In this document: positions 4,846 to 9,717 of the stretch, in pieces
Position numbering within the stretch: the first letter of the stretch is position 1
Layout: every line of letters begins with the position of its first letter
From: Actinomycetota bacterium
GTDB lineage: Bacteria > Actinomycetota > Acidimicrobiia > Acidimicrobiales > CADCSY01
Reading direction: 5' to 3'
Assembly (NCBI GenBank): GCA_019348495.1
Contig: JAHWJI010000014.1
Location: 1 to 35,756 of the forward strand
Length of the DNA: 35,756 nt
Notes under the pieces: generated by a model
What the model was told of the DNA's origin: nothing
The model's input: the letters and a program-made list of their open reading frames with translations, nothing else
Database searches by the model: none
Position numbers and translations under genes: made by a program

Positions 4846-6408
4846 ATGGCACGAGTCCTGGTGACCGAGAAGCTGGCCGAGGCCGGACCGCAACGGCTGG
4901 CCAAGGCCGGCCACGAGGTCGACGAGCGCCTCGGGCTGTCCCCCGAGCAGCTCTTGGAGGCGATCCCGGGAGCGGCGGCGCTGATCGTGCGCTCGGCCAC
5001 CGACGTGACCGCCGAGGTCCTCGCGGCCGGGGTCGACCTCGTGGTGGTGGGCCGGGCCGGCATCGGGCTCGACAACGTCGACGTGGCCGCCGCCACCCGG
5101 CGGGGCGTGATGGTCGTCAACGCCCCCCAGTCGAACGTCCTCTCCGCCGCCGAGCACGCCCTGGCCCTACTTCTGGCCCAGGCCCGCAACATCCCCCAGG
5201 CCAGCACCGCGCTCAAGGCGGGGAAGTGGGAGCGCTCCCGCTGGGAGGGCGTGGAGCTCCACGGCAAGGCCCTCGGGGTGATCGGCCTCGGCCGCATCGG
5301 GACCCTGGTGGCCCAGCGGGCCGCCGCTTTCGGGATGAGGCTGGTGGCGCACGACCCCTACGTCTCCGAGGAGCGGGCCCGACAGCTGGGCATCGAGCTG
5401 GTGGGCCTCGACGACCTCGTGGCCCAGGCCGACTTCGTCACCGTCCACGTGGCCCGCACGCCCGAGACCATGGGTCTGTTGGACAAGGAGCTGCTGTCCA
5501 AGGCCAAGCCCGGCCTGCGGGTGATCAACACCGCACGGGGCGGCATCGTCGACGAGGACGCCCTGGCCTGGGCCCTGGACGAGGGCATCGTCGCCGGCGC
5601 CGCTCTCGACGTGTTCTCCACCGAGCCCATCACCGCCTCACCCCTGTTCGCCATCGACTCGGTGGTGGTCACCCCCCACCTGGGCGCCAGCACCACCGAG
5701 GCCCAGGACAAGGCCGGCGTCACCATCGCCGAGCAGGTCACCCTGGCTCTGGCAGGAGAGTTCGTGCCTTTCGCCGTCAACGTGAGCGCCAGCGAGGCGT
5801 CGGAGACGGTGCGGCCGTTCCTGCCCCTGGCCGAGCGCCTGGGCACGTTGTTCTCCCGGCTCAACGAGGGCGTGCCCCAGATCCTGGAGGTCACCTACCA
5901 GGGCCAGTTGGCCGACTACGACACCCGCATACTCACCCTGTCGGTCCTCAAGGGCGTCTTCGGCGGGGTGGTGCACGAACCCGTGTCCTACGTCAACGCG
6001 CCCCAGCTGGCCGAGGAGCGAGGGGTCCAGGTGCGCGAGACGACCACCTCGTCGGTGCAGGACTACGTCAACCTCATCACCCTGCGGGGTGGCGAACACG
6101 CCATCGGCGGGACGCTGGCCGGGCTGCGGGGCGAGCCCCGCATCGTCATGCTCGACGACCACACGGTGGAGGTACCGCCCGCCGACCACATGCTGGTGCT
6201 GCGCAACGACGACCGCCCGGGCATGATCGGGATGGTCACCACGGCGTTGGGCGACGCCGGCATCAACATCTCCGACATCCACGTGGGCCGCTCTCCCGAG
6301 GGGTCGGCCGCCCTCATGGTGCTGGCTACCGACCAGCCGGCGCCGCCCGAGCTGGTCACCCGGCTGCGGGGGTCGCCGGGCATCTTCTCGGTCCACGCCC
6401 TGGGGTGA
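4846..6408 (+). CDS. serA: D-3-phosphoglycerate dehydrogenase
   Basis: A 520-residue long-form SerA, catalysing NAD-dependent oxidation of 3-phosphoglycerate, the committed step of serine synthesis. The Rossmann motif GLGRIG is at 147-152. Catalytic residues appear in INTARGGIVDE (R231), DVFSTEP (E260) and TPHLGAS (H278). An allosteric substrate-binding domain spans roughly 310-440, and a C-terminal ACT domain (about 450-520, LRNDDRPGMIGMV) suggests serine feedback control. ATG 4846 gives the standard N-terminus MARVLVTEKL. It lies 52 bases after the aminotransferase stop. A CACCAT six bases before the ATG could be a weak leaderless -10 box. The gene looks intact. Confidence 0.95.
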   Translation: MARVLVTEKLAEAGPQRLAKAGHEVDERLGLSPEQLLEAIPGAAALIVRSATDVTAEVLAAGVDLVVVGRAGIGLDNVDVAAATRRGVMVVNAPQSNVLSAAEHALALLLAQARNIPQASTALKAGKWERSRWEGVELHGKALGVIGLGRIGTLVAQRAAAFGMRLVAHDPYVSEERARQLGIELVGLDDLVAQADFVTVHVARTPETMGLLDKELLSKAKPGLRVINTARGGIVDEDALAWALDEGIVAGAALDVFSTEPITASPLFAIDSVVVTPHLGASTTEAQDKAGVTIAEQVTLALAGEFVPFAVNVSASEASETVRPFLPLAERLGTLFSRLNEGVPQILEVTYQGQLADYDTRILTLSVLKGVFGGVVHEPVSYVNAPQLAEERGVQVRETTTSSVQDYVNLITLRGGEHAIGGTLAGLRGEPRIVMLDDHTVEVPPADHMLVLRNDDRPGMIGMVTTALGDAGINISDIHVGRSPEGSAALMVLATDQPAPPELVTRLRGSPGIFSVHALG

Positions 6409-6449: not shown

Positions 6450-7256
6450 ATGAGCGTCCGCCAGGCAGTCGCTGCCTCGCTCAGCCTGGTACTGATTGTC
6501 ACCGGATGCACTTCCGGCGTGCCCGTGCGCAGCACCGGCGTCGACTCGACCTCGACGACGGTGACCGCTCCCGCCGGCGAGGAAGGTGTGCCGACGACCG
6601 ACCCTCCTCGATCGACGGCAGGGCTGCCGGTGGGGGACGACACCAGGGTCGAGTCGGTCGTGGACGGCGACACCATCGTCATCACCGGCGGGACCCGGGT
6701 TCGCCTCATCGGCATCGACACCCCCGAGACCAAGGACCCCCGCAAGCCCGTGCAGTGCTTCGGATTGGAGGCCGCCGCCTACACGGCGTCGCTGCTGGCG
6801 GTGGGGACGGCCGTGCGCCTCGTGTACGACGTCGAGCGCCTCGATCGCTACGGCCGCACCCTGGCCTACGTCTATCGACTGTCCGACGGCATCTTCGTCA
6901 ACGCCGCCCTGGTGGCCGACGGCTACGCCCAGGTGGCCACCTTCCCGCCCAACGTGGCCCACACCGAGGAGCTCACACAGCTGGCCGGAATGGCCCGGGA
7001 GGAGGGCCGGGGCCTGTGGTCGGCCTGTGGCGGCGAAGCGGGTGCACCGGAACCACCGTCCGCCGGCACCGCCCCTCCGCCGGTAGCCCGAGGCGGCTCA
7101 GGTTCGTGCGATCCGTCCTACCCCGATGCCTGCATCCCTTCGGCGCCGCCCGACCTCGACTGCGGCGACATCGCCGAACGGCGCTTCCGGGTGCTGCCCC
7201 CGGATCCTCACGGCTTCGACGGCCGGGACGGTGACGGGTTGGGTTGCGAGAGCTGA
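6450..7256 (+). CDS. Secreted lipoprotein nuclease: staphylococcal-nuclease-like domain plus Excalibur motif
   Basis: A 268-residue exported protein. The N-terminus has a signal peptide ending in lipobox IVTGC, so lipid anchoring at the outer face of the membrane is predicted. A Ser/Thr/Pro-rich linker runs to about residue 65. The nuclease domain follows: VVDGDTIVI, RVRLIGIDTPE (ligand and catalytic-type residues) and RLDRYGRTLAYVY, the usual TNase order. The end, DPHGFDGRDGDGLGCES, is a calcium-binding Excalibur motif. The protein probably degrades extracellular DNA or RNA, though many family members are untested. The ATG is close to a TAGCGA box but spacing is poor, so its promoter is unclear. 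It converges on the ferredoxin gene. Confidence 0.88.
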   Translation: MSVRQAVAASLSLVLIVTGCTSGVPVRSTGVDSTSTTVTAPAGEEGVPTTDPPRSTAGLPVGDDTRVESVVDGDTIVITGGTRVRLIGIDTPETKDPRKPVQCFGLEAAAYTASLLAVGTAVRLVYDVERLDRYGRTLAYVYRLSDGIFVNAALVADGYAQVATFPPNVAHTEELTQLAGMAREEGRGLWSACGGEAGAPEPPSAGTAPPPVARGGSGSCDPSYPDACIPSAPPDLDCGDIAERRFRVLPPDPHGFDGRDGDGLGCES

Positions 7257-7487: not shown

Positions 7488-7949
7488 TTAGCGCTTGGCC
7501 TGGCGCAGGCCATCGGCCTCGGCGCCGGCCGCGTCGGCGTAGCAACGGTCGGCCTTGGTGCGCTCGTAGTTGGCCATGCCCGGCAGGTGGAACACGCCAC
7601 TACCCAACTTGGCCTTGACCGGGTGGGATGGGGCGCACTCTCCGAGGTCGTCGGGCTCGATCCAGTCACCCCCCGCCTGGGGCGCCGAGGCAACCACCTC
7701 CTCGCCGACGATGGCCCCACCTTGTGTCGCCTCACCCTCGGCGTCCTGGCCGAGCTCGGCCGGATCGGGCCCGCTCGGCGCCAGGTCGGGCGCCGTGGCT
7801 GCGGGCACGTCGATCGGCGGCCACGGCTCGGTGCTCGAAGACCAGTCGGTTGCGGCGGATCGGCGGCGCTCGAGCACCTTGGACACTGCGGCCCCCACTC
7901 CGGCCACCACGCAGAGCTTGAGGGCGAAGCGGAACAGACGGCGGATCAT
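7488..7949 (-). CDS. Membrane-anchored sunset-domain protein
   Basis: A 153-residue protein. An N-terminal hydrophobic helix (about residues 5-25) is followed by a low-complexity Pro/Ala/Asp-rich stretch to about 100. A compact C-terminal domain then has HPVKAKLGSGVFHLPGM, YERTKADRCY and AEADGLRQAKR. That wording matches the small domain called 'sunset' in actinobacterial proteins, whose function is not established. The Cys pair (ECAPSHP and DRCYAD) could bind metal or form a disulfide. The ATG lies exactly six bases downstream of TAACCT, so a leaderless transcript is likely. Ferredoxin follows in the same direction; leuA is divergent. Confidence 0.75.
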   Translation of the reverse strand: MIRRLFRFALKLCVVAGVGAAVSKVLERRRSAATDWSSSTEPWPPIDVPAATAPDLAPSGPDPAELGQDAEGEATQGGAIVGEEVVASAPQAGGDWIEPDDLGECAPSHPVKAKLGSGVFHLPGMANYERTKADRCYADAAGAEADGLRQAKR

Positions 7950-7955
7950 CGACCG

Positions 7956-7961
7956 AGGTTA
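7956..7961 (-). promoter_or_regulatory. -10 box TAACCT, leaderless promoter for the sunset-domain gene
   Basis: On the minus strand TAACCT is followed by CGGTCG and then the ATG at 7949. The 6-base spacing places the transcription start at the A of the start codon. The identical arrangement (TAACCT-N6-ATG) precedes the radical SAM gene at 30218. Confidence 0.6.
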
Positions 7962-7994
7962 TCCCTCCGGTGGTCGACACAAGCGCCCGCCAGG

Positions 7995-8023
7995 TTGACG
8001 AAGTACGCCGTTCCTGGTTCTCT
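7995..8023 (+). promoter_or_regulatory. Possible leuA promoter
   Basis: TTGACG at 7995-8000 is one base from the -35 consensus. With a 17-base spacer the -10 would be TTCTCT at 8018-8023, a poor match. Initiation near 8030 would leave almost no untranslated leader before the short leader ORF. Confidence 0.3.
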
Positions 8024-8031
8024 TGAAGGAG

Positions 8032-8073
8032 ATGTTGCGCCAGCTCCGCTCCTGCGTCCTCCTGCTTACCTGA
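8032..8073 (+). CDS. Leucine-rich leader peptide of leuA
   Basis: A 13-codon ORF, MLRQLRSCVLLLT, in front of leuA. Five of 13 residues are Leu, including three consecutive codons (CTC CTG CTT at 8059-8067) just before the stop. It is followed at once by one hairpin and then a terminator hairpin with a T-tract, all upstream of the leuA ribosome site. This is the architecture of ribosome-mediated attenuation: leucine shortage stalls the ribosome at the Leu run. AAGGAG touches the ATG, too close to act as a normal ribosome site, so the peptide may be translated from a nearly leaderless RNA. Known leu leaders in other bacteria support the reading; expression here is inferred. Confidence 0.65.
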   Translation: MLRQLRSCVLLLT

Positions 8074-8098
8074 GGCGGGCACCTCCACGGTGCTCGCC
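8074..8098 (+). promoter_or_regulatory. Pre-terminator hairpin of the leuA attenuator
   Basis: GGCGGGCACC (8074-8083) pairs with GGTGCTCGCC (8089-8098) over ten positions with one G-U pair, leaving a 5-base loop. It begins one base after the leader stop codon, where a ribosome at the stop would cover it. CCTCC-type segments occur three times in the leader (near 8058, 8081 and 8103), giving the 3' arm of the terminator several possible partners. The exact antiterminator pairing is not resolved here. Confidence 0.5.
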
Positions 8099-8101
8099 AC
8101 G

Positions 8102-8136
8102 ACCTCCTGTGCCAGTCGGCCAGGAGGTTTTCTTTT
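8102..8136 (+). terminator. leuA attenuator: intrinsic terminator
   Basis: ACCTCCTG (8102-8109) and CAGGAGGT (8121-8128) form a perfect 8-base stem with an 11-base loop, followed by TTTTCTTTT. It is the clearest Rho-independent terminator in the window. It sits between the Leu leader ORF and the leuA ribosome site (AAAGGGA about 6 bases before ATG 8170), so it most likely ends leuA transcription early when leucine is plentiful. Confidence 0.75.
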
Positions 8137-8169
8137 CCCCCTGCACCCCTCCTTTCGAAAGGGACCGAC

Positions 8170-9717
8170 ATGGCCGATCGGGTCACGATCTTCGACACCA
8201 CCCTTCGCGACGGCGAGCAGTCGCCGGGCATCTCGCTCGACGCGGCCGAGAAGCTGGAGATCGCCGAGCAGCTGGCTCGACTTGGTGTCGACGTGCTCGA
8301 GGCCGGGTTCCCGGTGGCCAGCCGGGGGGACTTCGAGGCGGTGCAGGCCATCGCCCGCTCTATCGAGGGCCCCGTGATCTGCGGGCTGTCCCGCACCCAC
8401 CTGGCCGACGTCGACCGGTGCTGGGATGCCGTACGCGAAGCCGAGCGGGCCCGCATCCACGTGTTCATCTCCACCAGCCCCAGCCACATGCAGCACATGC
8501 TCAAGATGGACGAGGCCCAGGTGTTGGCCGAGACCAGAGCGGGGGTGGGCCGGGCCCGGGAGCACACCGACGACGTCGAGTTCAGCCCCCAGGACGCCAC
8601 CCGCACGCCACTGGACTTCATGCTCGAAGTGCTCCGGGCCGCGGTCGAGTCGGGGGCCACCACCTTGAACATCCCCGACACCGTCGGCTACGGCATCCCC
8701 TGGGACTTCGGTGCGCTCATCCAGTACGTGCGCCGTGAGGTCGAGGGCGACTACGTCACCTCCACCCACTGCCACAACGACCTGGGCCTGGCCACGGCCA
8801 ACTCGCTGGCCGGCATCCAGGCCGGCGCCCGCCAGGTCGAGGTGTGCGTCAACGGCCTGGGGGAACGAGCCGGCAACGCCGCCCTCGAGGAGGTGGTCAT
8901 GGCGCTGCGCATCCGGGCCGACCAGTTCCCCGGCGTCGAGATCGGGATCAACACCGAGGAGCTGGCCCGCACCAGCCGCCTCGTCGCCAGACTCACCGGT
9001 TATCCGGTCCAGTACAACAAGGCGGTGGTCGGCCGCAACGCCTTCGCCCACGAGTCCGGCATCCACCAGCACGGCGTACTGGCCAACAGCGCCACGTACG
9101 AGATCATCGACGCCGCCGCAGTGGGCCAGACCGGGCGCCAGATCGTGCTGGGCAAGCACTCGGGCCGCCATGCCTTCGCCGAGACCCTGGACCGCATGGG
9201 GCTGCGGATCCAAGGCGATGCCCTCAACGCCGCCTTCCAGCGCTTCAAGGAGCTGGCCGACCGCAAGGTCTCCCTCACCGACGCCGACCTCGAGGCCATC
9301 GTGGCCGAGGAGCTCGGTGGCCACGTCGACAACGGGTTCGAGCTGGAGTCGCTCGACGTTCGAGGGGGGACGGTGGGCACCCCCATGGCCTCGGTCGTAC
9401 TGGTCCACGAGGGTGACAAGCTCGAGGCCAGCGCCGAGGGCGACGGCATGATCGACGCCGCCTGCAAGGCCATCAAGGCGGCGACGGGGATCGACGGTGC
9501 CCTCACCGACTTCAACGTCTCGTCGGTCACCGAGGGGGTGGACGCCCTGGGCGACGTCATCGTCCAGTTCGATGCCGGGGGCATCAAGGTCTCGGGACGG
9601 GGCCTTTCCACCGACGTGGTGGAGGCATCGGCGCGCGCCTTTCTCAGCGCCGTCAACAAGGTCGTGCGAGTGCGCCGGCGCCAGGAGCAGGTCCGCCAAC
9701 CCGAGGTGACGCCGTGA
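8170..9717 (+). CDS. leuA: 2-isopropylmalate synthase
   Basis: A 515-residue LeuA, condensing acetyl-CoA with 2-ketoisovalerate in the first committed step of leucine synthesis. DTTLRDGEQSPG (residues 9-20) holds the catalytic Arg/Asp. STHCHNDLGLATANS (about 198-212) supplies the metal-binding His residues (H200, H202). VNGLGERAGNAALEEV is the second HMGL signature. FAHESGIHQHG follows, and the C-terminal leucine-sensing LeuA dimer domain runs from about 385 to 505. The last two differentiate it from homocitrate or citramalate synthase only partly, but the leader attenuator with Leu codons strongly favours leuA. A methyltransferase gene overlaps its stop by 4 bases. Confidence 0.94.
   Translation: MADRVTIFDTTLRDGEQSPGISLDAAEKLEIAEQLARLGVDVLEAGFPVASRGDFEAVQAIARSIEGPVICGLSRTHLADVDRCWDAVREAERARIHVFISTSPSHMQHMLKMDEAQVLAETRAGVGRAREHTDDVEFSPQDATRTPLDFMLEVLRAAVESGATTLNIPDTVGYGIPWDFGALIQYVRREVEGDYVTSTHCHNDLGLATANSLAGIQAGARQVEVCVNGLGERAGNAALEEVVMALRIRADQFPGVEIGINTEELARTSRLVARLTGYPVQYNKAVVGRNAFAHESGIHQHGVLANSATYEIIDAAAVGQTGRQIVLGKHSGRHAFAETLDRMGLRIQGDALNAAFQRFKELADRKVSLTDADLEAIVAEELGGHVDNGFELESLDVRGGTVGTPMASVVLVHEGDKLEASAEGDGMIDAACKAIKAATGIDGALTDFNVSSVTEGVDALGDVIVQFDAGGIKVSGRGLSTDVVEASARAFLSAVNKVVRVRRRQEQVRQPEVTP

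Follow-up and report, generated by a model that had tools for sequence, protein, structure and literature searches.

A predicted leucine attenuator upstream of leuA in Acidimicrobiia, and related two-hairpin modules before other branched-chain amino acid genes

The window, by which we mean the whole 35,756-nucleotide stretch of DNA analyzed here, carries a compact module upstream of leuA that we consider, with good confidence, to be a ribosome-mediated transcription attenuator governing that gene in response to charged leucyl-tRNA. Very probably, leuA is switched on solely when leucine is scarce. The first-pass annotation had read this region as a ribosome-mediated leucine attenuator, and the conservation of its Leu codons and stems among relatives supports that reading. 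Translation of the short leader open reading frame (ORF), sensing through its codons, and formation of both hairpins are well supported by this comparison. The direction of the response, in which a stalled ribosome turns the gene on, we infer from the biology of leuA and from experiments on Mycobacterium tuberculosis ilvB1 (PMC13236596).

All of the parts that had been annotated before leuA, namely a 13-codon ORF, a 10-pair hairpin, and a perfect 8-base terminator stem with a T-tract, are present at positions 8032 to 8136 of the forward strand. The leader ORF (8032..8073), encoding MLRQLRSCVLLLT in 13 codons, ends with the stop codon TGA (8071-8073). Its Leu control codons, CTC CTG CTT, lie at 8059..8067, and the third of them is rare here. 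The annotated position of this run, just before the stop, needs one correction: a Thr codon (ACC, 8068-8070) intervenes. Hairpin 1 (8074..8098), whose first base directly follows the stop codon, is GGCGGGCACC-TCCAC-GGTGCTCGCC, with 10 pairs including one G-U. It is followed by an intrinsic terminator stem-loop (8102..8128; 8 bp plus 3 bp, one bulge), in which the arms ACCTCCTG and CAGGAGGT (8102-8109 and 8121-8128) form 8 perfect pairs and a GCC/GGC inner stem sits over the one-base bulge. The T-tract, TTTTCTTTT (8128..8136), and a Shine-Dalgarno-like GAAAGGG (8157..8163), which belongs to leuA and falls outside the module, were read directly from the letters of the forward strand; the tract is T-rich in most relatives as well. 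The regulated gene, leuA (8170..9717, forward strand), begins 33 nt beyond the T-tract and encodes a 2-isopropylmalate synthase of the bacterial type (NCBIfam TIGR00973; score, 642.5 bits; cut-off, 598.7). Farther upstream is serA (4846-6405, forward strand), and between serA and leuA are a nuclease-like gene (6450-7253, forward strand) and an ORF without assignment on the reverse strand (7488-7949).

The segment from 8074 to 8137 folds with an energy of -42.1 kcal/mol (z = -7.5), and none of 200 shuffled sequences was as low. A simple scan of 7700-8500 returned no terminator, its pattern taking only loops of 3 to 8 nt, and no sigma-70-like site at 9/12. No Rfam 15 family reached its gathering score at 8032-8136, the best weak match being RF02837 (17.8 bits versus 49.5). 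A covariance model that included the window sequence gave a single match in the 2.2-Mb source genome (E value, 3.3e-17), where no second copy of the module was found, for example before cimA.

For comparison, 107 oriented loci were reduced to 93 nonredundant leuA upstream regions, four LeuA paralogues (L002 and L109-L111) having been excluded beforehand. The relatives are mostly labeled Acidimicrobiales, Acidimicrobiia, Actinomycetes, Actinobacteria, or Actinomycetota, which places the window in an uncultured member of that group; they are not independent, so the counts overstate the number of independent events. The module was present by pattern in 88 of the 93 regions. A cultured relative, Ferrithrix thermotolerans, has its module at L072. 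Leader codons -4 to -2 read Leu-Leu-Leu in 85 of these 88 modules and the final residue is Thr in 63, with the remaining peptide variable. Hairpin 1 starts 0, 1, or 2 nt past the stop codon in every one of the 88 and ends 1 to 6 nt from the terminator. Two of the five regions that failed the pattern (L065 and L073) are truncated where their contigs end, and a third (L105, genome G042) holds a variant module that the covariance model scored. The module is absent from two complete regions, in which serA (L007) or ilvC (L081) lies directly upstream of leuA; its absence where leuA sits right behind a biosynthetic gene is expected if the module brings its own promoter.

RNAalifold returned exactly two stems from the alignment of the 88 modules (A1). 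In these stems 96.6% of cells pair, and slid versions come nowhere near this value. Compensatory changes on both sides were found in 17 of the 20 stem pairs, comprising 9/9 consensus pairs of hairpin 1 and 8/11 of the terminator. Double-change cells numbered 125 in the native alignment versus 23 in shuffles, with 0 of 500 shuffles as high, and when arms were permuted among relatives, 0 of 1,000 permutations paired with an energy as low as the native arms for either stem. When every pair of columns was scanned, a z of at least 4.5 was reached by 11 of the 20 stem pairs; nonstem pairs also reached 4.5, most of them not base-pair-like, and the best mostly canonical one in that scan (columns 18-46, z = 4.4) had no neighboring support. 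The module thus combines a short ORF carrying codons for the amino acid product of the downstream gene with a predicted intrinsic terminator between that ORF and the gene, the latter indicated by compensatory stem changes and a T-tract.

The leader ORF is probably leaderless or nearly so, as had been suggested, because a -35-like motif stands within a narrow range of distances before the leader start in most relatives. In the window this motif is TTGACG (7995..8000, forward strand), 37 nt upstream of the start codon, with a weak -10 sequence, TTCTCT, at about 8018-8023. When TTGA[CA] was sought 25 to 45 nt upstream of the leader start, it was present in 63 of the 88 relatives, always at 34 to 41 nt and in 37 of the 63 at 38 to 39 nt, compared with 21 of 652 background windows. 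With a 17-nt spacer, a transcript starts about 35 to 36 nt after the first -35 base, and the untranslated leader predicted from this spacing is 0 to 3 nt in most of the 63. AAGGAG abuts the window ATG, at 8026-8031, just as the annotation had it; this sequence is unusual among relatives and is too near the ATG for normal action.

The same design precedes other branched-chain genes. Of 198 genomes sampled within the class, 100 contained a match to a covariance model built from A1 (R1); in a phylum-wide sample of 296, which included genomes of the same order and class, the number was 32. A second model, R2, built from R1 hits (65 rows, one a spurious antisense match), matched in 83 of 396 phylum genomes and 77 of 119 class genomes. 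We classified 168 of the covariance hits, leaving out L123, L131, L140, and L184-L189, and called gene types with tblastn from a small set of references. From that set, NCBIfam was used to check examples of both leuA types, leuB, ilvB, leuS, the aminotransferase, and cimA (two references together with the cimA of the source genome); the leuS fragment scored 529.7 bits, slightly short of the required 548.4, and no cut-off was passed by the aminotransferase. The downstream genes were ilvB (71), bacterial-type leuA (31), leuA_yeast-type leuA (27), leuB (14), cimA (13), leuS (8), and an aminotransferase (1), with none in 3 cases.

A leader ORF was found in 162 of the 168 modules; the other 6 had none by the rule used. 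At least two Leu residues occur among the last six in 31/31 bacterial-type leuA, 27/27 leuA_yeast-type, and 7/8 leuS leaders (65/66 together) and in 0/13 cimA and 0/14 leuB leaders. At least two Ile residues occur at these positions in 13/13 cimA and 11/14 leuB leaders and in 0/66 leuA and leuS leaders (cimA versus leuA/leuS, Fisher test, 4e-15). The ilvB leaders mix Leu, Val, and Ile. Citramalate synthase, the cimA product, feeds isoleucine synthesis, so the codon match follows the product rather than the gene family: the paralogues cimA and leuA have different leaders. Nor are the Ile/Val leaders a product of the search, since most of the leaders used to train the models carried Leu. One RNA design with exchanged codons thus appears to guard leuA, leuS, ilvB, cimA, and leuB.

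The enrichment is confined to one frame, at least three Leu, Val, or Ile codons of six occurring in 154 of 162 leader frames and in 2 and 2 of the other two frames. This pattern bears on whether the window might simply hold a constitutive terminator of an upstream transcript and a chance ORF, with the leuA promoter lying downstream. The weak -10 sequence and the empty promoter scan would suit such an arrangement, but codon identity that tracks the downstream product over five gene types, and a gap of just 33 nt between the T-tract and the leuA ATG, make it scarcely credible.

Codon choice at the control positions is unusual too. CTT occupies the third Leu position in 71 of 85 leaders, where the leuA of each locus would predict 8.2 (SD, 2.5). 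Before leuA, leuS, ilvB, cimA, and leuB, control codons with a final A or T are overrepresented, those of ilvB ending so in 147 of 301 cases versus 394 of 5,260 in gene bodies; GTA is common among the ilvB leaders. Rare control codons fit slow decoding at the sensing positions, or may instead reflect a constraint on the RNA itself. In modules with two codons after the run, where the stop is shifted, the spacing from control codons to hairpin stayed at 5 to 6 nt in 6/6, a weak check in that four of the six share one leader and family, the automatic hairpin start is noisy, and stray values go down to -10.

The first-pass annotation had called the element a full attenuator and had proposed competing partners for the 3' terminator arm. 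CCTCC does occur three times in the window (8058-8062, 8082-8086, and 8103-8107), but pairing of these copies with that arm shows neither covariation nor an excess of native over permuted energy, and they are not conserved competitors. Specifically, the Leu-codon run and the 3' arm (AGGAGG) had 78.9% of cells paired and 1 of 7 double-change pairs, with 451 of 500 shuffles at least equal to the native, and paired no better than permuted arms in either the 88 modules or a wider set of 138. This also bears on a translational switch or protein-binding element like the LEU element, as proposed for other actinobacterial leuA genes. The gene is the same, and its short leader likewise contains a Leu-codon run, which speaks for that interpretation (PMC1262725). 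The known element, however, pairs its Leu codons with the leuA Shine-Dalgarno sequence, whereas in the window AGGAGG forms one arm of the terminator, with a T-tract after it, the Leu-run pairing lacks covariation, and the leuA Shine-Dalgarno sequence is outside the module. We therefore regard a LEU-element-like switch as very improbable; by the description of Seliverstov (2005), the window module has no pairing between Leu run and Shine-Dalgarno sequence and does have a terminator.

Under a classical four-segment scheme, a stalled ribosome would let hairpin 1 pair through its 3' arm with the 5' arm of the terminator (a 2:3 antiterminator). Truncated transcripts gave some indication of such pairing: when the ribosome stood at the pre-stop codon or the stop codon, about 0.24 of the terminator 5' arm paired with the hairpin 1 region; this, however, arises with the ribosome past the Leu codons, which is the wrong direction. 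The duplex energy was no better than that of permuted arms (-5.37 versus -5.40, fraction as low 0.58), and the best-register helix had no excess of double-change pairs. The 5' arm of hairpin 1 likewise gave no excess over permuted with either terminator arm, and hairpin 1 or the stop codon overlapped the terminator 5' arm by more than 0.3 in 1 of 88 modules in truncated transcripts. The wider set, in which arms were exchanged only among modules of one gene type, repeated the two-stem result; there the hairpin 1 3' arm paired more weakly with the terminator 5' arm than permuted arms did (1,000 of 1,000 permutations pair at least as well as the native); this set comprises the 138 of 162 modules that fold into exactly two hairpins, a selection that biases against cross pairing. 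Covariation, permutation, and truncated-transcript folding of the 88 modules and the wider set thus yielded no coevolving antiterminator, and the mutually exclusive structure sharing terminator bases that defines trp-type attenuators was not found. The four-segment scheme is unlikely here, and in its classical sense the word full does not apply.

We propose instead that the module works through hairpin 1. The transcript, leaderless or nearly so, would begin close to the leader AUG, with a ribosome following immediately behind RNA polymerase and translating the 13 leader codons. When leucine is plentiful, this ribosome would pass the Leu codons, reach the stop codon, and cover the 5' arm of hairpin 1, and the terminator would end transcription ahead of leuA. 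A stalled ribosome would have its leading edge at the base of hairpin 1, which would stay folded against it, 1 to 6 nt from the terminator; the terminator would then fail, and leuA would be transcribed. If the leading edge is taken as 16 nt past the first P-site base, the toeprint value, a modeled ribosome whose A site holds the first Leu codon (Leu1) extends right up to hairpin 1, and a ribosome at the stop codon covers the 5' arm. Over 88 modeled modules, hairpin 1 retained a mean of 9.5 pairs with the ribosome at Leu1 and 2.1 with it at the stop. Ribosomes reach up to 12 nt past the stop codon, according to PMC4833913.

Terminator probability averaged 0.96 to 0.99 at every modeled ribosome position over the 88 modules, with single modules down to about 0 in three of six states. 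Because the terminator forms at all positions, equilibrium folding alone predicts no switch, and in these models hairpin 1 appears to be the sole element able to carry the signal of the ribosome. Hairpin 1 and the terminator share no bases and fold independently (joint energy minus the sum averages -0.28 kcal/mol), so the signal cannot pass by base sharing. We infer that folded hairpin 1 and the ribosome behind it hinder the terminator by close packing: together they would fill all of the space up to the terminator, whose stem must close down to the RNA-DNA hybrid, and a ribosome at the stop codon would open hairpin 1 and lift the hindrance. The weak point of this model is that hairpin 1 also folds in the ribosome-free state, so that readthrough without translation is predicted unless the ribosome is part of the block. 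Hairpin 1 might instead be an RNA polymerase pause hairpin that only synchronizes polymerase and leader ribosome, the link to the terminator being kinetic rather than steric. Pause hairpins have such a role in trp leaders, and hairpin 1 is very stable (mean, -18.2 kcal/mol) and upstream of the decision point. Pausing does not, however, account for how a stalled ribosome would halt a terminator that folds in every modeled state or for the placement of hairpin 1 at 0 to 2 nt past the stop in 88/88 modules, and we consider it a possible but doubtful alternative. Returning to close packing, we offer as a tentative proposal, short of even confidence, that Actinobacteriota have one interchangeable two-hairpin attenuator chassis for branched-chain amino acid genes, in which a hairpin set exactly at the leading edge of the stalled ribosome reads its position and blocks the adjacent terminator sterically, with no antiterminator that shares bases.

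Most of what is known of amino acid attenuation concerns Proteobacteria and a small number of Actinomycetia, and an antiterminator forms its core. The Escherichia coli trp, leu, and his leaders have control codons, a terminator, and ribosome-polymerase coupling as in the window module; unlike it, they have a mutually exclusive 2:3 antiterminator and a Shine-Dalgarno-led leader. Leaderless polycysteine attenuators were reportedly described by Canestrari in 2020. The remaining systems are compared as the cited papers describe them. M. tuberculosis ilvB1 (PMC13236596) similarly has a branched-chain upstream ORF, a hairpin maskable by a ribosome at the stop, and a Rho-independent terminator. Stalling is proposed there, with reporter support, to turn the gene on and to free the hairpin after the codons, and changing LVVI to AAAA gave a low, unresponsive reporter. 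Gene, class, and control codons differ, and the hairpin and terminator of ilvB1 are described as mutually exclusive, whereas those of the window module share no bases. Leaderless branched-chain leaders with terminators have been published for Streptomyces leuS and ilvB and for Corynebacterium ilvB (PMC8079986, PMC11857589, and PMC10272879). Among these, leuL2 of Streptomyces lividans combines a leaderless, Leu-rich leader with a hairpin and U stretch but precedes a different gene, leuS, and extends four residues beyond the Leu run (MRAVRLLLSEPR) (PMC8079986). Corynebacterium ilvBNC (the ilvB-II motif, PMC10272879; a three-hairpin model, PMC11857589) shares the U-tract terminator and branched-chain codons, and in Corynebacterium glutamicum the leader starts 1 nt from the transcript start; its antiterminator overlaps the terminator, whereas no overlap was found in the window module. 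The LEU element, or leuL1, of Actinomycetia regulates leuA through a Leu-run leader that is leaderless in S. lividans, but it has no terminator, and its proposed structure comprises a pseudoknot and a base stem involving the leuA Shine-Dalgarno sequence (PMC1262725 and PMC8079986). Against our reading, Leu-codon mutations in the Streptomyces coelicolor leuA leader, as recounted in PMC1262725, gave no classical attenuation; leaders of that kind are reported to lack a terminator.

In the open-licence literature we found no report of a leader-peptide attenuator in Acidimicrobiia and, judging by title and opening of the abstract, none of leader-peptide attenuation of citramalate synthase. The kind of element is known. 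As far as our searches of that literature show, what is new is that a terminator-bearing module stands before leuA in Acidimicrobiia, that cimA and leuB have modules of this type, that one chassis serves several genes through swapped codons, and that no antiterminator shares bases with the terminator. A compact, probably leaderless module without detectable antiterminator is retained across a class whose members are largely uncultured, and its codon-swapped reuse before leuA, leuS, ilvB, cimA, and leuB makes targets and amino acid specificity readable from sequence. How a nonoverlapping hairpin stops a terminator is a mechanistic question that small reporters could address.

Seven leuA_yeast-type loci came from the phylum, and six upstream regions (L292-L297) were read. 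A leader rich in Leu-Leu-Leu was found automatically in 4/6 and by eye in the other two, no T-tract terminator was seen by eye in the six, and these loci look like the LEU type. One of the genomes, G298, has two-hairpin covariance matches before ilvB, leuS, and cimA. Ile-run leaders with the two-hairpin module precede cimA at L276, L225, L270, and ten more loci, and Val/Ile leaders precede leuB at L172, L174, L175, and eleven more. At L172, L174, and L175, a LeuA-like match with roughly 32% identity starts some 2 kb beyond the module and is probably cimA; this arrangement suggests an isoleucine-directed leuB-cimA operon. L191 and L238 have covariance matches with no recognized branched-chain gene in the stretch fetched. 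At L177, a module-like match precedes a class-V-like aminotransferase and has a leader, LTRRSNK, without a branched-chain run; it is possibly another specificity or a chance match.
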